Assembly (NCBI RefSeq): GCF_018531445.1 | Contig: NZ_JAHDTH010000002.1 | Coordinates: 1 to 64,000, forward strand | DNA: 64,000 nt | Direction: 5' to 3' | Origin: Pseudonocardia lacus | GTDB taxonomy: Bacteria > Actinomycetota > Actinomycetes > Mycobacteriales > Pseudonocardiaceae | Part shown: one piece after another, positions 421 to 23,784 of the stretch | How the letters are laid out: each line of letters opens with the position of its first letter | Position numbering within the stretch: position 1 is the stretch's first letter | The notes under the pieces: generated by a model | Database searches by the model: none | What the model saw: only the letters and a program-made list of their open reading frames with translations | Told to the model about the DNA's origin: nothing | Translations under genes and position numbers: made by a program

Positions 421-448
421 GGGTCAATGATCGACGCCCCCGAACGAG

Positions 449-467: not shown

Positions 468-477
468 CCTCTCGGGG

Positions 478-1341: not shown

Positions 1342-1436
1342 CCCGGGCTCCCCACTCCCGGGCATCGGCCGCGGCCGTTGCCCAAGCGATGCCGCAGCCG
1401 GGAGCGCCGCCGCTCGTGCCGGGGCAGACTCGGGTC

Positions 1437-1979
1437 ATGGACCCCGGTGCCGCCGCTGCGCCCCTCACCCGTCCGGCGGACCCGGACCTGTCCCCGCCAC
1501 TGCGGCCCCCTGCCCACCAGGTGAGCCCCGTCGCGGTGCGCTGGTGGCAGCTGCGCTCGCTGCTGCTGCTCGCCGTCCTGCTCGTCCCCCAGGTCGCGGG
1601 AGCGCTGGTGTTCGGGTTCCCGGTCGCCGGCTGGCTGGTCGCGACGATCGCGGCGACGGCGGCCGTCGTCGGCGCGTGGGCGGTGCTCGTCCCGCCGCTG
1701 CTGTTCCGCATCCACCGCTGGGAGGTCACCGACGAGGCCGTCTACACGCTGTCGGGCTGGCTGGTGCGGGAGTGGCGGATCGCGCCGATCTCGCGGGTGC
1801 AGACCGTCGACACCGCGCACGGCCCGCTCCAGCAGGCGCTGGGGCTGGCCTCGGTCACGGTGACCACGGCGTCCGCCCGCGGTCCGGTGAAGATCGCCGG
1901 GCTGGCCGCGGCCGACGCCACCGAGCTGGCCCGGATGCTGACCGAGACCACGCAGGCGACGCCCGGCGACGCCACGTGA
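1437..1979 (+). CDS. PH domain (bPH2/YdbS-like) membrane protein
   Basis: 180 aa. Two hydrophobic segments (about residues 36-55 and 60-82) are followed by a bacterial PH domain of the YdbS type: 'FRIHRWEVTDEAVYTLSGWL' then 'EWRIAPISRVQTVDTAHGPL' and 'GLASVTVTTAS'. The stop overlaps the GTG of the next PH-domain gene in GTGA, so the two are translationally coupled, as in YdbS/YdbT pairs. An upstream in-frame ATG at 1389 is possible. The molecular role of these pairs is not established. Confidence 0.85.
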   Translation: MDPGAAAAPLTRPADPDLSPPLRPPAHQVSPVAVRWWQLRSLLLLAVLLVPQVAGALVFGFPVAGWLVATIAATAAVVGAWAVLVPPLLFRIHRWEVTDEAVYTLSGWLVREWRIAPISRVQTVDTAHGPLQQALGLASVTVTTASARGPVKIAGLAAADATELARMLTETTQATPGDAT

Positions 1980-3610
1980 GCGAGATCGCGGACGCCGCGT
2001 CCGGCGCGGCGCAGGAAGCGGGTAGCACCCCGCCGGCAGCCGACGAGACCCCGTGGCGTCGGCTCGACCGGCGGATGCTCGTGGTCGGCCCGTTCTCGCT
2101 GCTGGTGCGGGTCGTGCCGGTGGTCGTCGTGCTGCTGCTGTCCGGCCAGGGCGACCCGATCCGCGTCTGGATCGCGGCGGGCGCGGCCGTCGCGGCCGTC
2201 GTCGCCGGGGTGCTGCGCTGGCGCACCACCCGCTACCGGATCACCCCCGAACGGGTGGAGCTGCACAGCGGCTGGCTCAACCGCCAGCGCCGGTCGGTCC
2301 CGCGCGACCGCATCCGCACGGTCGACCTCACCGCCAAGCTGCTGCACCGGGTGTTCGGGCTCAGCGTCGTGCGGGTCAGCGCGGCCACCGCGGGCGTGCA
2401 GGCCGGCGGCGGGCTGAGCCTGGACGCGGTCAGCAAGGCCGAGGCCGAGCGGCTGCGCCGCGAACTGCTCGAACACTCCCCCGCCACCGCCGACCGCACC
2501 GATGACAGCGCCGCCGGGGCGCCACCCACCCAGGAGCTGGCCCGGCTGCGGTGGGCGTGGCTGCGCTACGCCCCGCTGACCTTCTCCTCGATCGCCGGCA
2601 TGGGCGCCATCGCGGCCACCGCCTTCAACCTGCTCGACGACCTGGGCCTCGACCCGCGCGACATCCGGGCCGTCGACGACACCGCAGCGCGGCTCGCGGC
2701 GGCGCCGGTCCTCATCGCGGTCGCCGTCGTCGCGCTGGCCCTGCTCGCGCTGCTGGTGGTCGGGGCGCTGCTGCTGTTCGCCGAGCGCTGGTACGCCTAC
2801 CGACTCACCCGGGAGCCCGACGGGACCCTGCGCGTGCGCCGCGGGCTGCTCACCCGCCGCTCGCTGTCGGTGGCCGAGCGCCGGCTGCGCGGCGCCGAGG
2901 TGGTGGAGCCGGTGCTGCTGCGGCTCGGGCGCGGCGCCCAGGCCAGGGCCGTGTCGACCGGGCTCGCCGGCGACCCGCAGGGCGGGGCGCTGCAGCCGCC
3001 GGCACCTCGGGCGGAGTCGCACCGGGTGGCCTCGGCCGCGCTGCGCGTCCCGCCCGAGCAGATCACTCAGGCGTCCCTGCGCAGGCACCCGCGCGCCGCG
3101 CTGACCCGCCGCGTGGTGCGGGCCGTCGGCCCGGCGCTGGTGCTGGCCGCCGCGGCCTTCGGCGTCGGCGACCTGCTCGACCTGGGCTGGCTCGGCCCGC
3201 TCGCGCTGGCGCTCGTGCCCGTCGCGGCACTGCTCGGCTGGGACCGCTACCGCAGCCTCGGCCACCAGCTGACCGGCGGGTTCCTGGTCGCCCGCTCCGG
3301 CTCCCTGGTGCGGCGCACGGTCGCCCTGCAGCGCGGCGGTGTGATCGGCTGGACGTTCCGCCAGACGCTCTTCCAGCGGCGTGCGGGGCTGGTGTCGCTG
3401 GAGGCCGTGACGGCCGCGGGGCGCGGCGGCTACACCGTCCTCGACCTGGGCGCCCGCGACGCCGTCGACCTCGCCGATGCCACGGTCCCCGACCTGCTCA
3501 CCGCGTTCCGCGCGCCGCTACCGGCGGCGGCGGGTGCCGAACATCCCCCGGGTGATCTCCCGGCCCAGCGCGCTGGCCGCCGAGCGCAGGAACGACTTCA
3601 CCACGGGTGA
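1976..3610 (+). CDS. PH domain (YdbT-like) membrane protein with multiple bPH2 repeats
   Basis: 544 aa, GTG start overlapping the preceding gene. Three hydrophobic pairs separate PH-like domains; the first is clear ('TRYRITPERVELHSGWLNRQ', 'RSVPRDRIRTVDLTAKLL'), the second begins at 'YAYRLTREPDGTLRVRRGLL', the third at 'GHQLTGGFLVARSGSLVRR'. This is the usual layout of YdbT partners of YdbS. The last 31 codons run antisense over the 3' end of the HerA-like gene (3518-3610). The family core ends near 'LLTAFRAPLP', so the remaining tail may be a read-on extension with no conserved role. Confidence 0.82.
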   Translation: MSEIADAASGAAQEAGSTPPAADETPWRRLDRRMLVVGPFSLLVRVVPVVVVLLLSGQGDPIRVWIAAGAAVAAVVAGVLRWRTTRYRITPERVELHSGWLNRQRRSVPRDRIRTVDLTAKLLHRVFGLSVVRVSAATAGVQAGGGLSLDAVSKAEAERLRRELLEHSPATADRTDDSAAGAPPTQELARLRWAWLRYAPLTFSSIAGMGAIAATAFNLLDDLGLDPRDIRAVDDTAARLAAAPVLIAVAVVALALLALLVVGALLLFAERWYAYRLTREPDGTLRVRRGLLTRRSLSVAERRLRGAEVVEPVLLRLGRGAQARAVSTGLAGDPQGGALQPPAPRAESHRVASAALRVPPEQITQASLRRHPRAALTRRVVRAVGPALVLAAAAFGVGDLLDLGWLGPLALALVPVAALLGWDRYRSLGHQLTGGFLVARSGSLVRRTVALQRGGVIGWTFRQTLFQRRAGLVSLEAVTAAGRGGYTVLDLGARDAVDLADATVPDLLTAFRAPLPAAAGAEHPPGDLPAQRAGRRAQERLHHG

Positions 3611-5071
3611 GCCCAGCGCCTTCTCCACGAACCCCGGCTCGGGCTTCTCCTCGCGCGCGGGCCGCGGGGGCGGCGCCGCCTCGGCGGGCGGGGCCGCCGG
3701 CGGCGGGGTCTCGGCGATGCGGGCGGTCAGCATCTCGTAGGCCGACTCCCGGTCGACCGTCACGCCGTACTTCGGGTACAGCACCGACGCCTTGGCCGCC
3801 GCCGCCACCTCGGCCTTGTCCATCGCGGCCATCAACGAGCGCGGCGCCCGCATCCGGGCCCACGCCACCGGCGTCGGCGCGCCCCGCTCGGACAGCACCG
3901 TGACGATCGCCTCACCGGTGCCCAGCGAGGTGAGCGCCTTCTCCATGTCGTAGAACTCGGTCTTCGGGTAGGTCCGCACGGTCTTGGTCAACGCGGTCTG
4001 GTCCTCCGGGGTGAACGCGCGCAGCGCGTGCTGCACCCGGGCGCCGAGCTGGGAGAGCACCGCGTTCGGCACGTCCGTCGGCAGCTGCGTGCAGAAGAAC
4101 ACCCCGACGCCCTTGGACCGGATGAGCTTCACGGTCTGCTCGATGCGCTCCAGGAACGCCTTGGACGCGTCGGAGAACAGCAGGTGGGCCTCGTCGAAGA
4201 AGAACACCAGCTTGGGCTTGTCCAGGTCGCCCGCCTCGGGCAGCTCCTCGAACAGCTCGGCGAGCAGCCACATCAGGAACGTGGAGAACAGCCGCGGGTT
4301 CGCGGCCTGGTCGGCCAGCTCCAGCAGCGTCACCACGCCCTTGCCGTCGACCGTGCGCATGAGGTCGGCCGGGTCGAACTCCGGCTCGCCGAAGAAGTCG
4401 TCGCCGCCCTGGGCCTCCAGGTTGACCAGCGCACGCAGGATGACCCCCGCGGTCGCCGAGGAGACCCCGCCGATGCCCTTCAGGTCGGCCTTGCCCTCGT
4501 CGCTGGTCAGGTGGGTGATGACGGCGCGCAGGTCCTTGGTGTCCAGCAGCGGCAGCCGGCGCTGGTCGGCCCAGTGGAAGATCAGCCCCAGGGTCGACTC
4601 CTGGGTGTCGTTGAGGTCGAGGACCTTGCTCAACAGGATGGGCCCGAACTGGGTGATCGTGGCCCGGATCGGCACCGCCGAGCTCCCGCCGCCCAGCGAC
4701 AGGAACTCCACCGGGTACGCCGTCGGCGCCCAGTCGTCGCCGGTGTCCTGCACCCGCGACTCGATCTTCGCGTTGCTCGCGCCCGGACGCGCCATCCCGG
4801 ACAGGTCGCCCTTCACGTCGGCGAGCAGCACCGGCACCCCGGCCGCCGACAGCTGCTCGGCCAGGCCCTGCAGGGTCTTGGTCTTGCCGGTGCCGGTCGC
4901 CCCGGCCACCAGGCCGTGCCGGTTGAGCGTGGCGAACGGGATGCGCACCCGCGCGGCCGGGTCGGCGACGCCGTCGATGCAGACGCTGCCCAGTTCGAGC
5001 GCCGCCCCTTCGGTGGCGTAGCCCGCGGCGATCGTCTGGGCGGGCGTGGACGCGGATGTGGAGTCGGACAC
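3518..5071 (-). CDS. HerA-like ATPase, DUF853 family (YjgR-like)
   Basis: 517 aa. Walker A 'GATGTGKTKTLQ' lies near the N-terminus after 'HGLVA', Walker B-like 'KLVFFFDEAHLLF' follows, then 'IRSKGVGVFFCTQLPTDVP', all typical of the DUF853 family of HerA/FtsK-related ATPases. The C-terminus has a Pro/Ala-rich linker and a basic tail. The GTG at 5071 (VSDSTSAS) is chosen because it leaves 70 bases to the divergent orn start; a GTG at 5122 would leave only 19. The cellular role is unknown; DNA translocation is inferred from fold only. Confidence 0.85.
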   Translation of the reverse strand: MSDSTSASTPAQTIAAGYATEGAALELGSVCIDGVADPAARVRIPFATLNRHGLVAGATGTGKTKTLQGLAEQLSAAGVPVLLADVKGDLSGMARPGASNAKIESRVQDTGDDWAPTAYPVEFLSLGGGSSAVPIRATITQFGPILLSKVLDLNDTQESTLGLIFHWADQRRLPLLDTKDLRAVITHLTSDEGKADLKGIGGVSSATAGVILRALVNLEAQGGDDFFGEPEFDPADLMRTVDGKGVVTLLELADQAANPRLFSTFLMWLLAELFEELPEAGDLDKPKLVFFFDEAHLLFSDASKAFLERIEQTVKLIRSKGVGVFFCTQLPTDVPNAVLSQLGARVQHALRAFTPEDQTALTKTVRTYPKTEFYDMEKALTSLGTGEAIVTVLSERGAPTPVAWARMRAPRSLMAAMDKAEVAAAAKASVLYPKYGVTVDRESAYEMLTARIAETPPPAAPPAEAAPPPRPAREEKPEPGFVEKALGSPVVKSFLRSAASALGREITRGMFGTRRRR

Positions 5072-5141
5072 GCCGGCATTGTGGACCCCGCTCCCCGTGT
5101 TGTCCTGCCCACCGCCCGCCACGAACGCTTAGTGTGACGGG

Positions 5142-5744
5142 GTGAACGACCGTCTGGTATGGATCGACTGCGAGATGACCGGCCTCGACCTGCGGCGCGA
5201 CGCTCTCATCGAGATCGCCGTCCTGGTCACCGACGGCGACCTGAAGGTCCTCGGCGACGGCGTCGACGTCGTCATCCACACGGGTGAGGACAAGCTCGCC
5301 GGCATGCCCGAGATCGTCCGTGAGATGCACGCCAAGTCCGGCCTCACCGACGCCGTGCGCGCCTCCGGCGTGACGATCGCGCAGGCCGAGCAGCTCGTCC
5401 TGGAGTACGTGCGCGAGCACGTGCCCGACGCCCGCACCGCCCCACTGGCCGGCAACTCCATCGCCACCGACCGCGGCTTCCTCAGCCGCGACATGCCAGA
5501 GCTCGACGCCCACCTGCACTACCGCATGGTCGACGTCAGCTCCATCAAGGAGCTGTGCCGGCGCTGGTACCCCCGCGTCTTCTACGCCAAGCCGGAGAAG
5601 GGCCTGGCCCACCGCGCCCTCGCCGACATCGAGGAGTCGATCCGCGAGCTCGACTACTACCGCCACACCCTGTTCGTCCCCCCGCCCGGCCCCACCACTG
5701 AGCAGGCACAAGCGGCCGCGGCCGCCCTGGCCCAGGGCACCTGA
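5142..5744 (+). CDS. orn: Oligoribonuclease
   Basis: 200 aa, the usual size. DEDDh exonuclease residues are all visible: Asp9 and Glu11 in '[10 protein letters not shown]', Asp110 in '[11 protein letters not shown]', His157 and Asp162 in '[11 protein letters not shown]'. Orn degrades 2-5 nt RNA fragments, including pGpG, in the cytosol. GTG start. It is followed by tRNA-His and tRNA-Lys, an arrangement familiar from many actinobacterial genomes. Confidence 0.97.
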
Positions 5745-5815
5745 CAACCCGGTGTCCCGCACCGCGGACGGACCGGTAGCATGGTCGAGTCGCCGGCTCC
5801 GGCCGGTGGACGCAT

Positions 5816-5892
5816 GGTGGGTGTAGCTCAGCTGGTAGAGCACCTGGTTGTGGTCCAGGAAGTCGCGGGTTCAAGTCCCGTCACTCACCCCA
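5816..5892 (+). tRNA. tRNA-His (GTG)
   Basis: Cloverleaf with acceptor arms GTGGGTG (5817-5823) and CACTCAC (5882-5888), which contain one G-U pair. The anticodon loop TTGTGGT gives anticodon GTG. The His identity features are present: an encoded G at position -1 (5816) opposite discriminator C73 (5889). CCA is encoded at 5890-5892. Confidence 0.95.
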
Positions 5893-5974
5893 TGCGGCGG
5901 CACCCCAGCCGCACCGGCTCCGGACGGGACGTGTACCGTTCCAGACGGCGCCGGGCAACGGGGCGCCGCAGCAG

Positions 5975-6050
<76 letters not shown>

Positions 6051-6052
6051 CC

Positions 6053-6080
6053 TCTGGCCAGGGCAGATGCCCTGGCCAGA
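6053..6080 (+). terminator. Hairpin terminator after tRNA-Lys
   Basis: TCTGGCCAGGGC and its exact complement GCCCTGGCCAGA form a 12-bp perfect stem with an AGAT loop, starting 3 bases after the tRNA CCA. The following CGTCTTTC is only weakly T-rich, as is common in high-GC actinobacteria. Confidence 0.8.
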
Positions 6081-6124
6081 CGTCTTTCAGCCGGCGCTTC
6101 GTCAACAGGCACGAGTTGGCTGCA

Positions 6125-6463
6125 GTGCCGATCGTGCGGTTCAGCGAGGTCAGCACCCGACGGGGTCGCACGATCGCAGTCCCTTCACACCTACCCCGCC
6201 TGCCCCCGGCACAGGCTCTGGCGACCGTTCAGCTCCCACTCCACCTCTGGTGGTCGACCACGCCACGCTCCTTCGACCTCCGAGACCGCACGCATCGTGC
6301 CCGTGTGTACGAGATCGTGCTCCGCGAGGGTGGACCGACGGACATCCTGACCTATGTGGACGGATTGCTGCTGACCGAACTCTGGCCCGACCTCGTCCTC
6401 CCCCAGGAGGTCCGCGCAGCGTGGGCAACCCCGATGAATCAGGCGATGACCGGGGCGGCGTGA
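6125..6463 (+). CDS. AbiE-type antitoxin-like protein (possibly decayed)
   Basis: 112 aa from GTG 6125 (a TTG at 6116 is also possible). The C-terminal half, 'LPLHLWWSTTPRSFDL', 'VYEIVLREGGPTDILTYVDG' and 'LWPDLVLPQEVRAAW', resembles the small protein that precedes AbiEii-type nucleotidyltransferase toxins in actinobacteria; this is recall of the neighbourhood, not a database hit. Its stop overlaps the GTG of the next frame (GTGA), the coupling expected for a toxin-antitoxin pair. The N-terminus is poorly conserved-looking. Confidence 0.5.
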   Translation: MPIVRFSEVSTRRGRTIAVPSHLPRLPPAQALATVQLPLHLWWSTTPRSFDLRDRTHRARVYEIVLREGGPTDILTYVDGLLLTELWPDLVLPQEVRAAWATPMNQAMTGAA

Positions 6464-6645
6464 GTTCCACAGCCCCGCTGACCACGTTCCAGGTCTCGGT
6501 CGCCTCACTGTTCTTCTCCCTGCCAGCCGGCGAAGGATTCCTCCTCGCCGGAGGCGCCGCGCTGGCAGCCCAACAGCAGTCGATATCGCTGGCGTCCAAT
6601 GCGCCGCACGCATACATCTGCTCAGCACCGCGTCGCGACCGGTGA
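6460..6645 (+). pseudogene. Truncated AbiEii/AbiGii-type nucleotidyltransferase toxin
   Basis: Only 61 residues. The opening 'FQVSVASLFFSLPAGEGFLL' and 'AGGAALAAQQ' is the characteristic N-terminus of AbiEii-like nucleotidyltransferases, in which the Gly-Gly motif is normally followed by RPT-x-DLD-hF catalytic residues and some 200 more residues. Here the frame runs on with unrelated sequence and stops at 6645, against the 3' end of the downstream MDMPI gene. The catalytic Asp residues are missing, so this is a remnant. Confidence 0.6.
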
Positions 6646-7509
6646 TCAGTCGAGGGCGAGCGCTGCCGCTCCGGCGAGGATGTGCGGCACGTGAACGACG
6701 CTGCCGCCCAGGTGGGTGGGCAGGTCAGCGGGGCGGAGGCGGTTGGCGACGAGTCGGCAGAAGTCGACCGCCTCGGCCACGATCGTCACCTCCGGCACGT
6801 CCCGGAGTGCGGGGGCGGGGGCGCCGCGGTCTCCCAGCGGGAGGTCCCAGGTCCCGCCACCGTCGCCGGTCAGGACGAGATGCAGGTCGACGGGCGCCTG
6901 CCCGTTTCCCAAGCGGGCCACGCCGAAGGGCAGGAGCCGGGTGGCGAGGGTGGTCATGAGCGTGAGCGTCGACGGGTCCGGGTCGCGGCGCGGCATCCCG
7001 ATGGCGGCTCGGATGTCGTTCTCGTGCGCCCAGAGCTCGAAGGCTCGCGCGACGAGCAAGGATCGCAGCGGCAGCCGGATGCGGTGCACCGCCACGACCT
7101 GGTCGAGGTCGTCGGTCGCCGCGAGATGGGTCAGCGTGGCGTCGACGGCGGTGCGCCAGGCGACCCGTGTCCCTTCGGGGGTCCGAGCCGGCTGCGATCG
7201 GGTCGCCGCGACGTGGTCGATGTCGGCGACGCCCGGATCTCCTTCGAGGGCCGCCCGGACGTCGTCCTCGACGCCGGTCAGGTGTGCGACGAGGCCGTAC
7301 GCATCGAGGCCGCGCAGCGCCACCGTCTCCCACTGGTCGTCGGCCAGAGCGCTCAACAGGCCGTTCAGCGCGTCGGCGGCCCGGCTGAACGCTTCGACGG
7401 CGGTGATCGGGGCCGGCTCGGGCACCGCGCGCCCGGCCGGTCGGACCGCCCGCGCCGCCACGACCACGCGCTCGCGCAGCCCGGACGGCGGAGGCGCGGA
7501 GCTGCTCAT
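6646..7509 (-). CDS. Mycothiol-dependent maleylpyruvate isomerase-family (MDMPI) protein
   Basis: 287 aa. An N-terminal DinB-like MDMPI domain is recognised by 'VALRGLDAYGLVAHLTGVED' and 'ARAFELWAHENDIRAAIGMP', whose His residues fit the metal site; the MDMPI C-terminal domain follows ('LGGSVVHVPHILAGAAALAL'). Its ATG overlaps the stop of the upstream sigma-factor gene in ATGA, so it is co-translated and may act as the sigma partner or anti-sigma-like regulator. Enzymatic isomerase activity is not implied by the context. Confidence 0.82.
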   Translation of the reverse strand: MSSSAPPPSGLRERVVVAARAVRPAGRAVPEPAPITAVEAFSRAADALNGLLSALADDQWETVALRGLDAYGLVAHLTGVEDDVRAALEGDPGVADIDHVAATRSQPARTPEGTRVAWRTAVDATLTHLAATDDLDQVVAVHRIRLPLRSLLVARAFELWAHENDIRAAIGMPRRDPDPSTLTLMTTLATRLLPFGVARLGNGQAPVDLHLVLTGDGGGTWDLPLGDRGAPAPALRDVPEVTIVAEAVDFCRLVANRLRPADLPTHLGGSVVHVPHILAGAAALALD

Positions 7510-8066
7510 GAAGACTCCAGCATCTGTCGGTCGAGGAGGATCTCCAGCTTGCCCAGGGCCAGCCGGATCCGCGACTTGGCGGTCCCCTCCGAGATGCCGA
7601 CGGTGCGCGCGACCTCGCGATAGCTCAAGCCCCCGAAGTAGGCCATCTCGACCACTTGGCGCTGCTCGGCGGGCAAGGTGCGCAGGGCTTCCCGGACTGT
7701 GGACGCCGTCAGCGCGTCGGCCACCTTCTCATCGGGTGAGTCCTGGTGATGTCCCGGTGTCAGCCGGTGGTGCCGTGCCTCCCGGCCCATCCGGCGCAGC
7801 TCACTGCGCAGTACGTCGTACGCGCGGTGCCGGGCGGACACGATCAGGTAGGTCCGGAGGCTGCCGAGTGCCGGGTCGTAGCGCTGCGGCCGCCGCCAGA
7901 GCTCGACGAACACGTCCTGCACCACGTCCTGGGCGGTCGCGGTCTGGCCGAGCACGCGCACGGCCGCCGTATGGACCGCCGACGCCAGTGCGTCGAACGC
8001 CTCGGTGAGGGCCCGCTCGTCACCCGCCGCCAGACGGGCGGCCAGGAGCTGATCGGGCGACCTCAT
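7506..8066 (-). CDS. ECF-type RNA polymerase sigma factor
   Basis: 186 aa from the ATG at 8066 (MRSPDQLL). Region 2 is seen in 'AQDVVQDVFVELWRRP' and 'TYLIVSARHRAYDVLRSE'; region 4 in 'LPAEQRQVVEMAYFGGLSYR' with the HTH 'ISEGTAKSRIRLALGKLEIL'. It is translationally coupled to the MDMPI gene downstream (ATGA). It is related to the second sigma factor at 8231-8827 and resembles the SigK-like group. Confidence 0.92.
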   Translation of the reverse strand: MRSPDQLLAARLAAGDERALTEAFDALASAVHTAAVRVLGQTATAQDVVQDVFVELWRRPQRYDPALGSLRTYLIVSARHRAYDVLRSELRRMGREARHHRLTPGHHQDSPDEKVADALTASTVREALRTLPAEQRQVVEMAYFGGLSYREVARTVGISEGTAKSRIRLALGKLEILLDRQMLESS

Positions 8067-8230
8067 GTCACTCAACGTACTGCCGCGAGCGGGACCGGAA
8101 CACCGGCCGCGGTCCGAACGGGCGCCCATCCCGCCGGCGGCGCGCGCGTCGAGCAGCATGTGCATCTCGCGTCACCGCCAGACTGCATCCATCGACAGAC
8201 CATCTGAGTTGATCCAGGCCCGCAGGTGAC

Positions 8231-8827
8231 TCATCCGCCGTGGACTCCGGTGGCGGCGAGGTCGGCGGCGAGTCGTCGGATCGCGGTTCGCATGCACGAC
8301 TTCACGGTGTCCTCCGGGATGCCGAGGGCACGAGCAACGTCGCGATAGGTCAAGCCCCCGTAGTAGGCGAGCAGAAGCACCCTCCTGTTCACTTCCGGCA
8401 GCTGGTCGACCGCGGTCCGGACGGCGACATGGGCCGCGTCGCTGCTGATCGCGGCGCCGCTGACCGCGTCCTCGGCGCTGTCGACGTCGCGCCAGCGTTC
8501 GCGCACCAGTCTCTCCACTCGTTCGTGCTGCCCGCCGCTGCGGCGCAGCCAGTCCACGGCACGTCGTCGTGCCATGGCGGCGAGCCAGGCACGCAGCCCG
8601 CCACGCGCCGGGTCGTAGAGGTCGGGCTGCTCCCAGAGACGGACGAAGCTGTCTTCGGTGATCTGCTCCGCGGCGCGACGGTTGCCGGTGATGTGGAGGG
8701 CAAGACCGTAGACGGTGGCCGAATAGTCGTCGTAGATCCGCGCCAAGGCCAGATCGTCGCCGGCGCTCACCCGATGCAGGAGGTGCTCGACCAGCTGACG
8801 GTCCTCAACGCCCCAGATCTGCGCCAT
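8231..8827 (-). CDS. ECF-type RNA polymerase sigma factor (SigK-like)
   Basis: 198 aa. Region 2: 'AEQITEDSFVRLWEQP', 'RAWLAAMARRRAVDWLRRSG'. Region 4: 'LPEVNRRVLLLAYYGGLTYR', 'IPEDTVKSCMRTAIRRL'. It begins two bases after the stop of the upstream zinc-finger/MDMPI gene, so the probable anti-sigma gene comes first here, the reverse of the neighbouring module. The linker between regions 2 and 4 is longer than in its paralogue. Confidence 0.92.
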   Translation of the reverse strand: MAQIWGVEDRQLVEHLLHRVSAGDDLALARIYDDYSATVYGLALHITGNRRAAEQITEDSFVRLWEQPDLYDPARGGLRAWLAAMARRRAVDWLRRSGGQHERVERLVRERWRDVDSAEDAVSGAAISSDAAHVAVRTAVDQLPEVNRRVLLLAYYGGLTYRDVARALGIPEDTVKSCMRTAIRRLAADLAATGVHGG

Positions 8828-8829
8828 CG

Positions 8830-9831
8830 TCAGTCACACCCCAACATGCTCGCGACATCCAGGAGATCGACGGCCAGCGCTTCCTCACCGGTCACCTGGA
8901 GCACCACGTCGTGACGAGCGCGGCGCCCGGCCACCAGCCGGCAGAACGCAGCCATGTCCGTGTGGATGGTGACCGCCGCGTCCGCGTCCGGATCACCGTC
9001 GCCGAGCAGCATCCGCCACTCGGTCTCCTCGCCCGCCTCGCTGAGCCGCAGCCGGGCCACCTTGCCCGGATGGCCGCGGCCTGCCGCGATCATGGCGCCG
9101 GGCAGCAGCGCCACCGCCAGGTCGACGATCGACCGCAGGTGCCGCGAGGGCGGGGGTGGCCCCACCGACCGCAGGCTCGTCCGGACGTCGTCGGTGTGGA
9201 TCCAGGTCTCGAAGGCCCGCTGCACCATGCCCTCCCGCATCGACCGGTACACCGGGCTACGCCCGGCCAGTCGAACGGGTCGTTCCAGCTCGCGCGGTGA
9301 CCTGGACCCCAGGTGCGTGACCAGGCTGGACGACTGCGAACGCCACTGCTCGTGCGCCGCCAGAGGGTCCGACCCGGGTTCGACCGTCGGCCCACCGACC
9401 GGAGTCGAGGTGAACGGCTGCAGATCGGCCAGCACCATCGCGTCGTTGCCCGCCAGATGCCTGACCAGGCCAGTGACGTCACCGTGCCGCGGGACGGGCG
9501 TACGCCACTGCGCAGGCGTCAGGTTTCCGAGCAACGCATCGAGCGTGCGCACCTGCAGCAGGTAGGGGTCGATCACCTCTGTCCTCAGCCGATGTGGGTC
9601 CCATCGACGCGCCCGGGCCTCGGTCAACGCCCGGGAGCGCAACGATGCTGGTGGCCTCATCGCTGTAGCCACCCCCAACCACCCGGCTGTCCGGTCGATG
9701 AGGTCCTGGTCGGCGACGCACCGGGGACAGCCGGTGACGTGCTCCCTCATGGCGGCAGCTTCTTCCACCGAGCAGGCACCGACCATCCAGGCAGCGAGGT
9801 CACCGCCACGTCCGCAGTCGCTTGCGCGCAT
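8830..9831 (-). CDS. Putative anti-sigma factor: zinc-finger plus MDMPI fusion
   Basis: 333 aa. The N-terminus has an anti-sigma zinc-binding signature, His31-x3-Cys35-x2-Cys38 in 'MREHVTGCPRC'. An MDMPI/DinB-like region follows ('VPRHGDVTGLVRHLAGNDAM', 'AFETWIHTDDVRTSLRSVG') and an MDMPI C-terminal domain that ends in Asp. It is the first gene of an operon with the sigma factor 2 bases downstream. Anti-sigma function is inferred from the zinc motif and the coupling. Confidence 0.78.
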   Translation of the reverse strand: MRASDCGRGGDLAAWMVGACSVEEAAAMREHVTGCPRCVADQDLIDRTAGWLGVATAMRPPASLRSRALTEARARRWDPHRLRTEVIDPYLLQVRTLDALLGNLTPAQWRTPVPRHGDVTGLVRHLAGNDAMVLADLQPFTSTPVGGPTVEPGSDPLAAHEQWRSQSSSLVTHLGSRSPRELERPVRLAGRSPVYRSMREGMVQRAFETWIHTDDVRTSLRSVGPPPPSRHLRSIVDLAVALLPGAMIAAGRGHPGKVARLRLSEAGEETEWRMLLGDGDPDADAAVTIHTDMAAFCRLVAGRRARHDVVLQVTGEEALAVDLLDVASMLGCD

Positions 9832-10063
9832 CCCGATCCGTCCCCCTGCCGCGTCCGCCCTGCACCCACGGCGCTGCCGTCCGTGGTCCTACGGTCCCGC
9901 CCTGACACGAGTACGGCGCCGAGCGCGGCGACGGATCACTCCGGACCGCAAACTCTTCGGGGGAGCACCGCTTCCCCGACCTGTCCCCGTCGTGGCCGTC
10001 AGGCAGAAACGTCTACTTCCCGCCGGCGCGGTGACGAGAACCCCGACCGGCAGCCCCGATGGC

Positions 10064-10747
10064 TCACACCGGTGGCGGCGGGGCAGCCCTGCGCAGCACC
10101 CGCGCCACCTCGTCGGTGACGCCCGCGTCCGCCGGGTGGCTGCTGGTGAGGAGCAGACCGAGCACGGTCTGTCCACCGCCGTACATGTGCGCGGTCGCGG
10201 TCGGATCGGCGCCGCGATCGAGCAGGAGCTGCGCCATGTCGGCGGCGTTGGCGGGTACCCGCTGGCGGTGGGTCTCCACGCCGTTGGCGGCCAGGTAGTG
10301 CAGCAACGTGGCACCGTGCCCCCAGTGCGACCGCGCCGTGACCAGCCCGGGGTGTTGATCCAGGAGGCCCGCCACAGCCTCCCGGTCGCCGGACAGGACG
10401 GCCTCGACACACCGCTCGAAGTCCGGTGCGGGCTCCACGGGCTGCGCGGCCAGCGCCGCCGCCCAGTCCGGATACCCGTGGCCGCGGGCCACCGTGTCCC
10501 GGTAGTCCCGGTCGGACAACTCGACCGCCCACACCGCGTCCGCCCGACCGGCCAGATCCGGGTGCCAGTTCGACAGCTCGACCCGGGCTCCGGGGTGGTG
10601 GCTGCGGTGACCGGCGGCCACGCGGTCGGCGAGCAGGCGCAGGTGTTCCAGGCCACCGCGGCGAGCCGCCTGCGCACCGAGCAACCCGTCGTACAGCGCG
10701 CACACGGCGGCGACACCGGGATGGACGTGGACGGCCACCGGGGTCAC
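10064..10747 (-). CDS. Ankyrin-repeat protein
   Basis: 227 aa from GTG 10747. The C-terminal half holds ankyrin units: 'SGDREAVAGLLDQHPGLV', 'GATLLHYLAANGVE', 'ADMAQLLLDRGADPTATAHM', 'TVLGLLLTSSHP'. The N-terminus ('ELSDRDYRDTVARGHGYPDW') is of unknown fold. It probably mediates protein-protein contact. The start is uncertain; a 16-codon frame with a good ribosome site ends in a GTGA overlap with this GTG. The 232 bases upstream of the sigma module (9832-10063) lie downstream of this gene and hold no gene that I can see. Confidence 0.7.
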   Translation of the reverse strand: MTPVAVHVHPGVAAVCALYDGLLGAQAARRGGLEHLRLLADRVAAGHRSHHPGARVELSNWHPDLAGRADAVWAVELSDRDYRDTVARGHGYPDWAAALAAQPVEPAPDFERCVEAVLSGDREAVAGLLDQHPGLVTARSHWGHGATLLHYLAANGVETHRQRVPANAADMAQLLLDRGADPTATAHMYGGGQTVLGLLLTSSHPADAGVTDEVARVLRRAAPPPPV

Positions 10748-10794
10748 GGGCGGTGCGCGACGGCGGGCCCGCGGGCGGGCTCCTGCTCGGACAT
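10744..10794 (-). CDS. Possible 16-aa upstream peptide coupled to the ankyrin gene
   Basis: ATG at 10794 is preceded by GAGGA at a spacing of about 8 bases and opens MSEQEPARGPAVAHRP. Its TGA overlaps the GTG of the ankyrin gene (GTGA). It could be a translated leader, or it may mean that the ankyrin start is set wrongly. Confidence 0.25.
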   Translation of the reverse strand: MSEQEPARGPAVAHRP

Positions 10795-18060: not shown

Positions 18061-18489
18061 TCACGGGGACCCTTCACGGGTGCGGGAGGGCCGGACCTCG
18101 GCCAGGTCGGCGAACGGGAGTGGGCAGTCCTCGCAGGTGCAGTTGGTGAGGCTGTCGCAGCGGGCCCGCACCACCTGCAGCAGCCCGTCGCGGATGCTGG
18201 CGAGGTCGGCCATGCGGGCCTCGACCTCGACGAGCTTGGCCCGGGCGCGCTGCTGAAGATCCGGGGCCGGGTGGCGGCGGCCGGCATCGAGCAGGTCGGC
18301 GACCTCGTCGAGGGTGAACCCGAGCCGCTGGGCGGCCTTGACCACCCGCAGCAGCGCGACGGCGCCGTCGTCGTACTCGCGGTACCCGCCCGGGGTGCGG
18401 CGGGGTTCGGGCAGCAGGCCGCGGCGTTCGTAGTAGCGCAGCGTCTGCACGTTCACCCCGGCCGCCGCGGCGAGCTGCCCGGACCTCAT
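18061..18489 (-). CDS. MerR-family metal-type regulator
   Basis: 142 aa from ATG 18489, which has CGGAG at 6-7 bases; a GTG at 18504 would overlap the preceding stop. HTH and wing 'TLRYYERRGLLPEPRRTPGG'; the C-terminal region carries clustered cysteines in 'CDSLTNCTCEDCPLPF', typical of metal-sensing MerR proteins. It is the second gene of an operon with the CC-motif protein, under a MerR-type promoter at 18985-19016. Mercury sensing is possible, but no mer genes are nearby. Confidence 0.9.
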   Translation of the reverse strand: MRSGQLAAAAGVNVQTLRYYERRGLLPEPRRTPGGYREYDDGAVALLRVVKAAQRLGFTLDEVADLLDAGRRHPAPDLQQRARAKLVEVEARMADLASIRDGLLQVVRARCDSLTNCTCEDCPLPFADLAEVRPSRTREGSP

Positions 18490-18500
18490 GATCGACTCCG

Positions 18501-18947
18501 TCACATCCGCGCCGCTCGGGAGGCCTCGGCCTGCGCGGCCAACCCCTCGAGCACCACGATCCGGTCGTCGGGCACCCGCACGTCCACCACCACCGCGCCG
18601 TCGCCGCGGTGCACGGCGAAGTCGAAGAACGAGCAGCACCCGGACTCGCGCGCCACCAGGTCCCGGGCCCGGTCCTCGACGTCGTCGCGGTCGTCGAGGC
18701 GCAGCCGCAGCCACCCCGGCTCCTCCCGACGCACGTCCAGCAGCGCGGCGAACAGGCCGTCGAACTCGGCCAGCCGCGTCGGCCGGTCGGCCGTCGGCAG
18801 CGTGCACGCATCGACCGGCACCCAGGCCGGCTCCGACCGCGGCGACGGGGCACGGCCCGCCACCTGCCCGTCCCGATCGAGCACCGGCGGCACCGGTGCC
18901 GGCGCGACCTCCAGGGCGAACGCCTCCTGGGCCGCCTCTACCGCCAT
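18501..18947 (-). CDS. Small 'E..CC.F' protein linked to MerR (copy 1)
   Basis: 148 aa from ATG 18947 with GGAGG 8 bases upstream. The core 'ARDLVARESGCCSFFDFAV' carries a vicinal Cys pair after Glu and is clearly paralogous to the protein at 19478-19927 ('ARDLAAREMACCAFLSITV'). Both also share 'RLAE' and a V-D-V/T strand. The CC pair could bind a soft metal; I know similar proteins next to MerR genes but no assigned function. Confidence 0.65.
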   Translation of the reverse strand: MAVEAAQEAFALEVAPAPVPPVLDRDGQVAGRAPSPRSEPAWVPVDACTLPTADRPTRLAEFDGLFAALLDVRREEPGWLRLRLDDRDDVEDRARDLVARESGCCSFFDFAVHRGDGAVVVDVRVPDDRIVVLEGLAAQAEASRAARM

Positions 18948-18984
18948 GTCCGCCTCCGTGGGCCGTTGTTGACCAGCACCTACG

Positions 18985-19016
18985 ACGCTAGGTCCGTACC
19001 GCGGTACAGCCTTCAA
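18985..19016 (-). promoter_or_regulatory. MerR-type promoter (20-bp spacer, central dyad)
   Basis: On the minus strand: -35 TTGAAG (19016-19011), a 20-bp spacer containing the perfect palindrome GTACCGCGGTAC (18996-19007), then -10 TAGCGT (18990-18985). The over-long spacer with a central dyad is the hallmark of MerR-activated promoters. It should drive the CC-protein and merR operon. Confidence 0.7.
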
Positions 19017-19027
19017 CGTGTCCGTGC

Positions 19028-19420
19028 TCACACACCGCCGAAGTCGCACCGGCCGGCGCGGCACCGGTCGAGGACCGACTCGACGTCGGCCTGCACGGCC
19101 GCGAGCTCGGCCATCCGCGCCCGGGTCCGGTCGAGGACCGCCTCCAACCGCCACCGCTGGGAGTCGCACGAGGCGTCGCCGCGGTCGTGCGACCGCAGTG
19201 CGTCGGCGACCTCGTCGAGGGTCATGCCCAGCGCCTGCAGGCGCCGGGCGAGCCTGATCGTGCCCACGGCGGCGTCCGGGTAGAGGCGGTAGCCCGACGG
19301 CAACCGCTCGGCGGGCCGGAGCACGCCGCGGCGCTCGTAGTAGCGCACGGTGTCCACGCTGACCCCGGCCAGGCGAGCGACCGCACCGATCTTCAGCGAT
19401 GACCCTTGACTCTGGACCAC
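19028..19420 (-). CDS. MerR-family regulator (second copy)
   Basis: 130 aa. 'LKIGAVARLAGVSVDTVRYY' with the wing 'RLPSGYRLYPDA' identify MerR; the tail 'VLDRCRAGRCDFGGV' and 'ASCDSQRW' supply possible metal-ligand cysteines. The only in-frame start near the HTH is the GTG at 19420, which lies inside the dyad of the divergent promoter. It is divergent from the CC protein at 19478 and probably controls it. Confidence 0.88.
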   Translation of the reverse strand: MVQSQGSSLKIGAVARLAGVSVDTVRYYERRGVLRPAERLPSGYRLYPDAAVGTIRLARRLQALGMTLDEVADALRSHDRGDASCDSQRWRLEAVLDRTRARMAELAAVQADVESVLDRCRAGRCDFGGV

Positions 19421-19437
19421 GGTCCAGACTTTACCGT
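19406..19437 (+). promoter_or_regulatory. MerR-type promoter for the second CC-protein gene
   Basis: -35 TTGACT (19406-19411), a 20-bp spacer with the perfect dyad CTGGACC-AC-GGTCCAG (19412-19427), and -10 TACCGT (19432-19437). The dyad overlaps the GTG of the divergent merR gene, so binding would also repress merR itself. Confidence 0.75.
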
Positions 19438-19477
19438 TCTCGGGCCAGCATCGGAACGACCACAGGAGCCCGAACCC

Positions 19478-19927
19478 ATGAACGACCACGCCACTCGCCC
19501 CGACGTCGCCGAGACGGCTCCGCCCGCTGTCGTGTGCGACATGACCGACGCGCCCGACACCGGCGAGCAGCGCCTGGCCGAGTACGCCCGCCTGTTCGCC
19601 GAGGCGTTCGTGGCGCGGGAACGCACCCCCGCGGGGTTCCGGTGGCGGCTGCGCGCCGACGCCGGCGTCGAGGCCTGGGCCCGCGACCTGGCGGCCCGGG
19701 AGATGGCCTGCTGCGCGTTCCTGTCCATCACCGTCACCCGCGTCGACGGGGAGGTCCGGTGGGACACCACCACCATCGACGACCCGGCGGCGACGGCCGT
19801 GCTGGAGCTGATGTACGAGCTGCCCGAGGCCGAGTGGGCCGGCGTCGACGAGCTGCACGAGCGGTTCGTCCGGACCACGGGCGTGCCCATCGTGGGCTTC
19901 GAGGCCGACCACCGCGCCGGTTCGTGA
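19478..19927 (+). CDS. Small 'E..CC.F' protein linked to MerR (copy 2)
   Basis: 149 aa; AGGAG lies about 10 bases before the ATG. Paralogue of the 18501-18947 product: 'RLAEYARLFAEAF', 'GFRWRLRADAGVEAWARDLA' and 'AREMACCAFLSITVT'. No membrane segment. The vicinal cysteines suggest metal or redox chemistry. An SRPBCC gene follows 17 bases downstream, probably in the same transcript. Confidence 0.65.
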   Translation: MNDHATRPDVAETAPPAVVCDMTDAPDTGEQRLAEYARLFAEAFVARERTPAGFRWRLRADAGVEAWARDLAAREMACCAFLSITVTRVDGEVRWDTTTIDDPAATAVLELMYELPEAEWAGVDELHERFVRTTGVPIVGFEADHRAGS

Positions 19928-19944: not shown

Positions 19945-20427
19945 ATGACGTCGGACAACCGGGTGGTCTCCTGCGAACGGATCGTCGACGCCGCGGCGGA
20001 GCGCATCTTCGCCCTGATCGCCGACCCCGCGGCCCAGCCGAGCTGGGACGGCAACGACAACCTGGGCGTCGCGGCCGGGGGCCAGCGCGTCCGCGGGGTC
20101 GGCGACGTCTTCGTCATGACGTTGACCCTGGGCGTCGACCGCGAGAACCACGTCGTCGAGTTCGAGGAGGGGCGCCGGATCGCGTGGCGTCCGGCCGAAC
20201 CGGGCGGCACCCCACCCGGCCACCTGTGGCGCTGGGAGCTGATGCCACGCGAGGACGGGACCACGCTCGTCCGCCACACCTACGACTGGACCGAGCTGAC
20301 CGACCCGACCCGCTTCGAGCGGGCCAGGGCGACCACCGCCGAGCGGCTCGCGGCCTCGGTTGACCGGCTGACCGCGCTCGTCACCGGGGACGACCGGACG
20401 CCGTCCGCCGCCGGACCCGACGCCTGA
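19945..20427 (+). CDS. SRPBCC-family protein
   Basis: 160 aa; AGGA lies 10 bases before the ATG. Opening 'VSCERIVDAAAERIFALIAD' with a following 'W-G', strand 'GDVFVMTLTL', 'HVVEFEEGRRIAWRP' and 'WRWELMPREDGTTLVRHTYD' are the START/Bet v1-like fold of polyketide-cyclase-like SRPBCC proteins. Ligand unknown. It is co-oriented with the MerR-controlled CC protein. Confidence 0.85.
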   Translation: MTSDNRVVSCERIVDAAAERIFALIADPAAQPSWDGNDNLGVAAGGQRVRGVGDVFVMTLTLGVDRENHVVEFEEGRRIAWRPAEPGGTPPGHLWRWELMPREDGTTLVRHTYDWTELTDPTRFERARATTAERLAASVDRLTALVTGDDRTPSAAGPDA

Positions 20428-20440: not shown

Positions 20441-21046
20441 CTACCCGCGGGCGGTGAGCCACTCGCCCACCGCCGCGGCCGTCTCCGCCACGGACCGGTC
20501 GGTGGTGTCGAGCAGGTCGACCGCCGGGTCGAGGGTCGCCGCATCGGACTCCAGCCAGGCGGCGTAGTCGAGCATCTCGGCGATGCGCGGCTCGTCCCAC
20601 TCGCGCCACGCCGGCCGGGCCCGCAGCCGCGCGGCGAGGACGTCGGCGCGGCAGGTCAGCGCGAGGTAGCGGACCTCGGTGAAGAGGGCGCGCTCGGGCA
20701 GCGGTTCCAGCTCGGGCGGCACCACGGTCCCGCAGAGCAGCACGGGCCGTCCGCTCTGCCCGACCATCGCCGCCATCCGCAGCCACGTCGAGCGGAACGC
20801 GCGGTGGTGCCCGGCCGGGTCGCGCAGCTCGGGGATCCACAGGACGTCCTGCTCCAGCACGACGAACCGGTCGCACAGCCGGGGCAGCAGCGCGCGCCCC
20901 ACCGTCGACTTGCCGGTCCCGCTGGGCCCCACGAGGCAGTGCAGGGGCTGGCGCACGAACTCCTGCTCGTGGCCGCAGTCCCCGCACACCAGCGGGGCCG
21001 CCGGGGTGACCCGCGCGCCGCAGCGCGTGCAGACCAGCGGGTTCAC
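20441..21046 (-). CDS. Zinc-ribbon plus P-loop kinase-like ATPase
   Basis: 201 aa, GTG start. The N-terminal zinc ribbon has Cys6, Cys9, Cys21 and Cys24. Walker A GPSGTGKS at residues 40-47; a nucleoside/shikimate-kinase-like fold follows ('FVVLEQDVLWIPEL', 'VLLCGTVVPPELEPLPERAL', 'EVRYLALTCRADVLAARLRA'). The zinc-ribbon fusion is unusual. It starts 3 bases after the TFIIB-like zinc protein gene. Substrate unknown. Confidence 0.75.
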   Translation of the reverse strand: MNPLVCTRCGARVTPAAPLVCGDCGHEQEFVRQPLHCLVGPSGTGKSTVGRALLPRLCDRFVVLEQDVLWIPELRDPAGHHRAFRSTWLRMAAMVGQSGRPVLLCGTVVPPELEPLPERALFTEVRYLALTCRADVLAARLRARPAWREWDEPRIAEMLDYAAWLESDAATLDPAVDLLDTTDRSVAETAAAVGEWLTARG

Positions 21047-21049
21047 CGC

Positions 21050-21379
21050 TCAGCCGAACAGGTCGCCCAGGAAGCTCTTGTGCTTGCGGTTGCCGTAGGG
21101 GCGCGGCGAGTCCGGGTAGTGGCCGCCGTGGCGCTCGCCCCGGTACGGACGGGGCGAGTCGGAGTAGCCGCCGCGGTACGGGCGCGGCGAGTCGGGCTTG
21201 CCGCGGTGGCCGCCCGGCGGGACGTAGGGCGCGGCGCCGTAGAAGCGGCTCTCGGCCGAGAGCATGTGCTCCAGCTCGCCGTGGTCGAGGAAGATGCCGC
21301 GGCAGTTCTCGCACTGCTCGATCTGCAGGCCCTGCCGGTCGACCGTGCGCATGCGTCCGTGGCATTTGGGACAAGTCAC
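21050..21379 (-). CDS. TFIIB-type zinc-ribbon protein with DSPRPY repeats
   Basis: 109 aa, GTG start. N-terminal zf-TFIIB domain: Cys3, Cys6, Cys23 and Cys26, with 'QIEQCENCRGIFLDHGELEH'. The C-terminal 60 residues are low-complexity with three DSPRPY(R/G) units and end 'NRKHKSFLGDLFG'. The family is widespread and of unknown function. The following kinase-like gene, also zinc-ribboned, is 3 bases downstream. Confidence 0.85.
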   Translation of the reverse strand: MTCPKCHGRMRTVDRQGLQIEQCENCRGIFLDHGELEHMLSAESRFYGAAPYVPPGGHRGKPDSPRPYRGGYSDSPRPYRGERHGGHYPDSPRPYGNRKHKSFLGDLFG

Positions 21380-21958: not shown

Positions 21959-22489
21959 ATGCCGCTCATCTACGTCACCGGCATGTCGGGCTCGGGCAAG
22001 TCGTCGGTGCGCAGGGAGCTGCTCCGCCGCGGCCACCTCGCCCACGACACCGACGAGGACGACCTCTCGTCCTGGCGCCGCGCCACGACCGGCGAGCCCG
22101 TGGCGCGCCCGGACGCGGCCACGGACCGCACCCGCGAGTGGTACGCCGAGCACGAGTGGAGCTTGCCGAGGCGCAAGGTCGAGGGGCTCGTCGCCGGGGC
22201 GGGCGAGCGGTCGGTGTTCCTCTGCGGCTCGCCGACCAACGGCGACGAGCTGGCGGACCTCTACGACGTCGTCGTCTGCCTGACCCTCGACGCGGACACG
22301 CTGCGGCACCGGCTCGCCGGGCGGACCGGCGAGGAGTTCGGCTCGGCTCCCGACGAGCTGCGCCTCGTCCTGGGCTGGCACGCGTCGTTCGAGGAGCGGT
22401 ACCGGCGGTGGGGAGCGCTGATGGTGGACGCCACGCGGCCGCTGGCCGAGGTGGTCGACGAGATCGTGGAGCGCACGGGGGCCGGGTGA
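21959..22489 (+). CDS. P-loop (AAA/adenylate-kinase-like) nucleotide kinase
   Basis: 176 aa. Walker A 'GMSGSGKSS' at the N-terminus, 'HDTDEDDLSSW', 'SVFLCGSPTNGDELADLYD' and 'DTLRHRLAGRTGEEFG'. The architecture is that of small uncharacterised kinases annotated as AAA-family ATPases. Substrate unknown. It stands alone, 51 bases after the preceding gene. Confidence 0.78.
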   Translation: MPLIYVTGMSGSGKSSVRRELLRRGHLAHDTDEDDLSSWRRATTGEPVARPDAATDRTREWYAEHEWSLPRRKVEGLVAGAGERSVFLCGSPTNGDELADLYDVVVCLTLDADTLRHRLAGRTGEEFGSAPDELRLVLGWHASFEERYRRWGALMVDATRPLAEVVDEIVERTGAG

Positions 22490-22542: not shown

Positions 22543-23784
22543 GTGAGCCGCATCGTCGAGACCGTCGCCCCGTCCCGGCTCGGGAGCGGCTTCCGCTGGT
22601 TGCTGGCCTCCTCGTGGGTGTCCAACCTCGGCGACGGCGTGGCGCTGGCCGCCGGCCCGCTGCTGGTCGCCTCGCAGACCGACTCCGCCGCGCTCGTCGC
22701 GCTCGGGGCGACCCTGCAGTGGCTGCCGCCGCTGGTGTTCGGCCTGTTCGCCGGGGCGCTCACCGACCGGCTCGACCGCCGGCTGATCATCATCACCGCC
22801 AACGCGGTCCGCTGCCTGGTACTGGCGCTGCTGACGGCGTCGATCCTCACCGGCGTCGTCTCGGTGGCGGTGGTGCTGGTGGCGCTGCTGCTGCTGGCCA
22901 CGGCCGAGTCGTTCGCCGACAACACCTCGCAGAACCTGCTGCCGATCGTCGTGCACCGCGACGACCTGTCCGCCGGCAACGCACGGCTGCAGACCGGCTT
23001 CATCACGCTGAACCAGCTGGCCGGGCCGTTCGTCGGGGCGTCGCTGTTCGCCGCGGGCGCGGTCTGGCCGTTCCTCACCGAGGCGGTGCTGGTGGCCGCG
23101 GCGGCGGTCCTGGTCAGCCGCATGAGGCTGCCCGAGCGCGTCCCGACCGGCACCGGCCGGCGCCGGATGCACCGCGACATCGTCGAGGGGCTGCGCTGGA
23201 CCTGGCACCACGCCGCCGTCCGCACGCTGGTCCTGGCGATCTTCACGTTCAACATCACCTTCGGCGCCGCGTGGTCGGTCCTCGTGCTCTACGCGACCGA
23301 GCGCCTGGGGCTGGGGCCGATCGGCTTCGGTGCCATCACGGTGGTCCAGGCCGTCGGCGGGCTCGCCGGGACCGCGGCCTACGGGTGGATCACGCGTCGG
23401 GTGTCCCTCGGCGACCTGCTGCGGATCGGCCTGGTCATCGAGACGCTCACCCACGCCGCCCTGGCCGTGACGACCCTCCCCTGGGTCGCCATGGTGATCT
23501 TCTTCGTGTTCGGGGCGCACGCGTTCGTCTGGGCCACGACGTCGGTCACCGTGCGCCAGCGCGCGGTCCCCTCCGAGCTGCAGGGCCGGGTCGGCAGCGT
23601 CAACGTCGTCGGCGTGTACGGCGGGCTGGTGCTCGGCTCGGGGATCGGCGGGCTGCTCGCCCAGCACTACGGCGTGACCGCGCCGTTCTGGTTCGCGTTC
23701 GCCGGCTCCGCGGTGTTCGTCGTGCTGATCTGGCGGCAGCTGTCGCACGTCGCGCACGCCGACGAGCACCGGTCACCCACCTGA
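22543..23784 (+). CDS. MFS transporter
   Basis: 413 aa with about 12 hydrophobic segments, GTG start. MFS motif A is seen as 'FAGALTDRLDRRLIIITANA'; the N-terminus 'FRWLLASSWVSNLGDGVALA' and 'LVGLAQHYG..PFWFAFAGS'-type end are usual in the MFS_3/enterobactin-exporter-like group. It probably exports a small molecule; the substrate cannot be read from sequence. Confidence 0.92.
   Translation: MSRIVETVAPSRLGSGFRWLLASSWVSNLGDGVALAAGPLLVASQTDSAALVALGATLQWLPPLVFGLFAGALTDRLDRRLIIITANAVRCLVLALLTASILTGVVSVAVVLVALLLLATAESFADNTSQNLLPIVVHRDDLSAGNARLQTGFITLNQLAGPFVGASLFAAGAVWPFLTEAVLVAAAAVLVSRMRLPERVPTGTGRRRMHRDIVEGLRWTWHHAAVRTLVLAIFTFNITFGAAWSVLVLYATERLGLGPIGFGAITVVQAVGGLAGTAAYGWITRRVSLGDLLRIGLVIETLTHAALAVTTLPWVAMVIFFVFGAHAFVWATTSVTVRQRAVPSELQGRVGSVNVVGVYGGLVLGSGIGGLLAQHYGVTAPFWFAFAGSAVFVVLIWRQLSHVAHADEHRSPT

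Follow-up and report, generated by a model that had tools for sequence, protein, structure and literature searches.

Why would a soil actinobacterium carry, in less than 2 kilobases (kb) of DNA, two differently built sensors with the same kind of output? The question is raised by the first 64,000 nucleotides (nt) of contig NZ_JAHDTH010000002.1 of Pseudonocardia lacus (assembly GCF_018531445.1), the stretch called the window hereafter. A first-pass annotation, made from the letters alone, had noted two MerR-family regulators lying together with two paralogous proteins that share an E..CC motif (CC proteins), one set as an operon and the other divergent. Coordinates and reciprocal homology agree with this description: four genes lie within 18061-19927, CC1 and merR1 as an operon and merR2 and CC2 as a divergent pair. 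The answer that we prefer, at roughly even confidence, is that each MerR-CC pair would be a small response unit for soft metals or metalloids, with the CC protein holding them and passing them on. The locus is composed as follows.

18061-18504, minus strand: merR1, MerR-family regulator (Pfam MerR_1, 1.1e-20, over cut-off); GTG start, with an alternative ATG at 18489
18501-18947, minus strand: CC1, E..CC protein of 148 amino acids, assigned by homology to CC2; apparent thioredoxin ends at its N-terminus
18985-19016, minus strand: CC1-merR1 promoter/operator, TTGAAG / 20 base pairs (bp) / TAGCGT, dyad GTACCGCGGTAC; mercury-MerR-type, GTAC-4-GTAC
19028 to about 19429, minus strand: merR2, MerR-family regulator (Pfam MerR_1, 1.1e-18, over cut-off); exact start uncertain
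19406-19437, plus strand: CC2 promoter/operator, TTGACT / 20 bp / TACCGT, dyad CTGGACCACGGTCCAG; ZntR-type arms
19478-19927, plus strand: CC2, E..CC protein of 149 amino acids, of a separate clade, assigned by homology to CC1

What, then, would switch these genes on? MerR proteins act on a dyad that lies within an over-long promoter spacer, and the inducer-bound regulator switches the promoter on. The annotation had given both promoters a 20-bp spacer with a dyad, and both were confirmed, at 18985-19016 (minus) and 19406-19437 (plus); a dyad inside a spacer of 19-20 bp, the mark of MerR-family promoters, is thus present twice. Each promoter pattern matches once in the window and never in 100 dinucleotide shuffles, and the CC1-type pattern, with one mismatch allowed, has a single match in the 8.06-Mb genome. 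The GTG start of merR1 shares 4 nt (GTGA) with the stop of CC1.

The two dyads had been read as unlike, and comparison with described operators places them in different classes. PMC1526738 gives TCCGTAC-(4)-GTACGGA as the operator of proteobacterial mercury MerR, ACCGTGTAC-(4)-GTACAGGGT, with a 20-bp spacer, as that of firmicute mercury MerR, and ACTCTGGAGTCGACTCCAGAGT as that of ZntR. Counted by hand against these sequences, the CC1 operator agrees with the proteobacterial MerR consensus at 12 of 14 arm positions and contains the GTAC-4-GTAC core, and the CC2 operator agrees with the ZntR consensus at 15 of 16. Judged by their arms, one window dyad is mercury-MerR-type and the other ZntR-type, which fits the presence of two regulators. 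Different inducers for MerR1 and MerR2 are accordingly plausible on these sequences, and the two probably answer different metals, their operators being mercury-like and Zn/Cd/Pb-like, respectively.

The regulators themselves appear to agree in part with this division into a mercury-type MerR1 and a ZntR-type MerR2. For MerR1, the best-scoring NCBIfam model is MerR (1.8e-30, below cut-off) and the nearest solved relative is the mercuric MerR 5crl (1.1e-21); its C-terminal Cys cluster was found by pattern in 59 of the 68 full-length MerRs examined. MerR2 keeps a Cys aligned with those of MerR 5crl and CadR (the Cys82-equivalent; the 77-82 position) and has a C-terminal Cys pair of the form C-x4-C. 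It scores alike against ZntR and MerR models, all below the NCBIfam cut-off, with 78.9 against an equivalog cut-off of 167.95 for ZntR and 73.6 against 151.45 for CadR-PbrR.

Is the CC gene the dedicated target of such promoters beyond the window? Members of the CC1 family were found in 47 of the 200 genomes searched within the order. Among the 80 actinobacterial loci named here (the best 80 of 444 confirmed in a scan with the closer alignment A2, with neighbours assigned by our own seed searches on stop-to-stop frames and not from curated annotation), merR lies directly 3' of CC on the same strand in 67, two fusions counted in. The strict form of the CC1 promoter occurs at 20 sites in the 200 genomes, against none for a reversed-pattern control, and comparison of positions with the CC1-family matches places every one of the 20 ahead of a CC gene that runs on the same strand, so that this form of promoter serves a single kind of target. 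Eighteen of the sites are at most 50 bp from the matched CC stretch, and two (G180 and G062) are about 640-670 bp upstream. These two were considered as long fusions, a reading rejected on finding a separate membrane gene between promoter and CC (DUF6789 in G180). A broader scan, with spacers of 18-21 bp allowed and five shuffles per region, gave a candidate MerR-type promoter upstream of CC in 70 of 82 regions, 69 of them with a 20-bp spacer; two of the 70 score no higher than the 95th percentile of the shuffles, 14. A frequent form among relatives is TTGCAT-CCGGTACCCGGGTACAGGCT-TACCGT, and several CC loci that have no adjoining merR still keep a candidate MerR-type promoter. The suggestion that the CC proteins are the regulated output is upheld by these counts. 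A survey of genomes had been proposed as a check on the pairing, and since MerR and CC go together in 67 of 80 loci and at 20 of 20 strict sites, lack of conservation provides no argument against it. In viral contigs scanned with A2, 26 pattern matches were found, none of which was confirmed by tblastn.

Close CC2 orthologues are present in four other genomes of the 297 searched, one of the same genus (G452) and three of the same family (G393, G319, G274). CC1 and CC2 occur together in the window, G452 and G319; the CC1-merR1 operon is inverted in the window relative to G452, and G393 has a CC1 relative some 40 kb from its CC2 orthologue. The CC2 operator, TTGACT-CTGGA......TCC.GACT with its 20-bp spacer, is kept in the window, G452, G393 and G319, and differs in G274, where the left arm is CTAGA.

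The CC proteins have an equally constant core. CC1 as query finds CC2 at an E-value of 2.7e-10 (39% identity), and CC2 finds CC1 at 7.2e-10 (41%). Of 154 different homologues, none lacks E101, C104 or C105, and R58 is kept in 151 and C48 in 149. For 82 of them E..CC had served as one of the two patterns of the scan that found them, but the 72 obtained otherwise carry E..CC as well, without exception. C48, E101, C104 and C105 are all kept in both CC1 and CC2. In a tree of 80 rows, for which 40 of the CC1 rows were drawn at random and in which the row L063_p_1_390, labelled CC2, is really CC1 of G452, CC2 belongs to a clade of five on a long stem with support 100/98. A recent duplication of CC1 to give CC2 was rejected on account of this separate clade, and the two are, by their sequences, homologous but old relatives.

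To which known family might this domain belong? Pfam, NCBIfam, PHROG and PDB gave no convincing match for the CC1/CC2 domain. The best Pfam model for CC1, antibiotic-biosynthesis monooxygenase (ABM), reaches 13 bits where 23.1 are needed, CC2 has no Pfam match, and the best E-value over 59 family members is 0.0076, for a single member. Membership of ABM was rejected, its weak Pfam matches (0.12 for CC1; 0.021 for the best member) falling far under the cut-off. Neither CC1 nor CC2 nor any of three other stretches of CC alone matched an NCBIfam model, and four membrane-CC proteins gave one weak match (13.2 bits of 44.6); PHROGs gave one weak match, to CC1 (0.09), and the PDB sequences two only (0.31 and 1.5). 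AlphaFold models CC1 as alpha-beta-beta-alpha-beta-beta-alpha with a core mostly above 90 in predicted local distance difference test (pLDDT), and the CC2 model is similar; in both the Cys-Cys pair ends the second helix. With neither model did Foldseek reach a PDB entry at E <= 0.001. For CC1, VIA-align ranks the ArgR C-terminal domain best (Z 8.3, root-mean-square deviation 2.9, 78 residues aligned), a level that the tool calls common, and we take the match for a common arrangement. No description of the family was found in the literature searched, which is no proof of absence; the CC domain family is apparently undescribed.

The fusions and neighbours of CC genes give the clearest view of what the domain may do. 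It is fused to MerR in both orders, CC-MerR in L168 and L180 and MerR-CC in L184 and on seven plasmids. These fusions suggest the strongest structural rival to our reading, a role as co-sensor or brake of its own MerR, in which CC would buffer the inducer or bind MerR and turn the promoter off again, in the manner of MerD, within a mainly autoregulatory regulon. That the regulated output seen in the window is CC and MerR1 only would suit such a brake. A regulatory role is hard to see, however, for the CC domains fused to a heavy-metal P-type ATPase of Cd-family type (G130, a 749-codon frame), to thioredoxin or a membrane segment, or at the end of an ABC exporter in L209, L210 and L211 (one genus), where C48 is lost and E..CC kept, and we consider a co-sensor unlikely.

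Thioredoxin stands just 5' of CC in 5 of the 80 loci and is fused to it in L110, L111 and L114; in L110, the only one of the three run against Pfam, the domain is matched at 7.3e-27 (PF00085). CC1 itself seems, by alignment, to hold both ends of a thioredoxin domain, the middle with its CxxC being gone, and the stretch of its promoter and first codons can be aligned with G452 over 149 bp, at 69%; it appears to be a thioredoxin-CC protein from which the middle of the thioredoxin was deleted. This apparent deletion, along with the lack of a linked metal transporter, could be taken to mean that the window copy is a decaying remnant, with thioredoxin and transporter lost and no useful function left. 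We judge decay very unlikely, given four intact reading frames, two intact promoters, the four residues kept in CC1 and CC2, and a CC2 operator kept in three of four orthologues (G274 being the one that differs).

Plasmid relatives were reached through divergent family members; with CC1 and CC2 themselves as tblastn queries, no plasmid match was obtained at 1e-5. Neighbours were counted at 23 places, opened 4.5-6 kb each side; H3, H30, H34 and nearly identical records from Rhodococcus and Paracoccus are among the matches outside this count. An SBF transporter, annotated as 'bile acid:sodium symporter' or 'arsenic resistance protein', is present at 11 of the 23, thioredoxin or redoxin at 8, YnfA at 7, CcdA at 5, and merA, merB or alkylmercury lyase at 5. 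Thioredoxin and CcdA genes adjoin CC on Rhizobium and Sinorhizobium plasmids, and together with the thioredoxin fusions they would fit a module that answers oxidative, electrophile or thiol stress, its vicinal cysteines forming a disulfide or adduct that thioredoxin and CcdA reset. Metal and metalloid genes are nevertheless frequent among CC neighbours and fusions, and the window operators match the mercury and zinc classes set out in PMC1526738; we regard a stress response without metals as quite unlikely. In Mesorhizobium, CcdA and thioredoxin genes are reported to be Zn/Cd-induced (PMC3668242). On the Sinorhizobium plasmid L228, a gene for a GDCCVxC-domain protein (7626-7859) follows the CC-thioredoxin-CcdA-SBF genes, and the same family occurs near CC in Sphingomonas pTSSC1.

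One partner that may point to mercury is a small membrane protein with a Cys-Cys motif. It is encoded as a MerC/MerT-like gene within 4 kb of CC in 17 of the 80 actinobacterial loci, and as a segment, assigned by eye, fused to CC in proteins of Sinorhizobium, Rhizobium, Paracoccus and Janthinobacterium plasmids. The fused segment resembles the separate actinobacterial protein in its Cys-Cys motif, by eye, and in seed matches near 1e-4, which only L230 and L236 gave; those of L227, L228 and L229 have no seed match to it, and the CC part of L236 is truncated, with no profile match. Resemblance of this partner to MerC/MerT, a mercury-type operator and the proximity of CC to mer genes on Nocardioides pNOCA01 and in Janthinobacterium would suit a mercury pathway without MerA, in which a MerC/MerT-like part imports mercury or organomercury and CC takes over for export. 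On pNOCA01 (Nocardioides sp. JS614, L224), a mer island at 338-10787 contains merB, merA, two tandem CC-MerR-membrane protein units and genes for redoxin, CcdA, an SBF transporter and YnfA. On Sphingomonas pTSSC1 (L232, 5444-5812), a 122-residue 'mercuric reductase', probably misnamed, matches the MerT model at 8.6e-06, below cut-off.

Several observations weigh against such a mercury pathway, and we think it unlikely. The separate actinobacterial membrane proteins all score below the Pfam cut-offs for MerC and MerT, and the four membrane-CC fusions tested match neither at E <= 1. Genes of arsenic type also lie near CC (ArsR in 12, ArsO-like in 8 and ArsC in 4 of the 80 loci), and MerR1 lacks the equivalent of Cys82. 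An organomercury link by co-occurrence was found unsupported across the genomes of the order: MerB is in 30 of 200 and CC in 47 of 200, with 3 shared where 7 are expected (p 0.064). In the organism's own genome, a draft 99% complete, no MerA exceeds the cut-off, with eight matches below it, and no MerB was found.

Our preferred reading, a soft-metal(loid) response unit, would work along the following lines. From family knowledge we infer that MerR sits on the dyad inside the over-long 20-bp promoter and, with inducer bound, turns the CC gene on. C104, C105 and probably C48, with E101, may then keep a cytosolic thiophilic metal or metalloid bound, to be handed to a membrane exporter or, where a small Cys-Cys membrane segment is present, received from it; thioredoxin and CcdA, where present, might keep the CC cysteines reduced. 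The window unit, with sensor and CC domain only, would serve as an inducible buffer or carrier for unlinked partners. The annotation had called the CC proteins stand-alone, which is true locally but not in general, because relatives are fused to or in line with thioredoxin, ATPase, ABC exporter, membrane segment, YnfA (within 1.5 kb downstream of CC in 30 of the 80 loci) and SBF.

Some results weigh against this reading. By alignment, MerR1 lacks the first metal cysteine of mercury MerR, the Cys82-equivalent. The region of C48 has low confidence in the CC1 AlphaFold model, making a three-cysteine site only a candidate, and the pattern-based preselection of 82 homologues qualifies the invariance of E..CC. 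In the window there is no linked known metal transporter and no linked thioredoxin; the one YnfA gene of the genome lies on a different contig, and a single MerC/MerT-like membrane protein used as query found no relative in the genome. At four of the 23 plasmid loci (L230, L234, L235 and L238), all of the listed partner genes are missing. The arsenic-type neighbours tell against a plain mercury form, and the shortfall in joint occurrence of MerB and CC points the same way.

Around the unit, the claim that no reductase, P-type ATPase or other transporter accompanies the CC genes is borne out by the adjoining genes tested, as far as transporters known for metals go; an MFS_3-type transporter gene lies about 2.6 kb past CC2 (22543-23784). 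The genes tested encode an alpha/beta hydrolase, an SRPBCC protein, AAA-type kinases and a Zn-ribbon protein. The SRPBCC (Polyketide_cyc2) gene at 19945-20427 (plus) starts 17 nt past the CC2 stop and may share a transcript with it, unlike the genes first called past CC2 in G452, which are on the opposite strand. AAA_33/AAA_18 P-loop kinase-like genes at 20444-21046 (minus) and 21959-22486 (plus) flank a gene for a TFIIB-type zinc-ribbon protein (21053-21352).

What the locus adds is a new output domain in a known kind of system: the window holds a reduced form of a widespread MerR-regulated module that has apparently gone undescribed. The CC domain has invariant cysteines, is present in 47 of the 200 genomes searched in the order, and has a sharply defined MerR promoter dedicated to it; the libraries searched offer no curated family, no solved structure and no name for it. 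Relatives of the CC proteins of this soil organism are joined to pumps, to thioredoxin and to the sensor, and this points to a putative reusable part of toxic-metal defence. We offer more tentatively, as possible rather than probable, that E..CC is a cytosolic metal-relay domain common to actinobacteria and proteobacteria, linking Cys-Cys carriers, thioredoxin/CcdA and exporters (SBF, YnfA, P1B ATPase, ABC) in soft-metal detoxification without mercuric reductase, as one exchangeable part among carrier, pump, redox and sensor proteins. Direct predictions that can be tested follow from the fusions to pump, thioredoxin and sensor; they concern a step missing from toxic-metal handling.

How does the unit compare with known systems? 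With mer operons (MerR, MerT/MerC/MerF, MerP, MerA) it shares a MerR-type regulator, a dyad in a 19-20-bp spacer, the GTAC-4-GTAC core at the MerR1 operator and, in some relatives, a small membrane protein weakly resembling MerC/MerT; it differs in that the genome has neither a MerA over the cut-off nor a MerB, in the missing Cys82-equivalent of MerR1, and in the CC domain as output. Like ZntR and CadR, MerR2 is divergent from its target, with ZntR-like arms and the aligned Cys kept, but that target is CC2 and not a P-type ATPase, and its NCBIfam ZntR score is under cut-off. CC1 relatives carry a full N-terminal thioredoxin domain (PF00085), whereas window CC1 is without the middle of that domain, including CxxC, and the CC domain itself is not a thioredoxin. 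In mer operons, MerD, a MerR homologue, shuts the promoter off again; the CC domain is no MerR homologue, yet like MerD it is a second small protein tied to a MerR.

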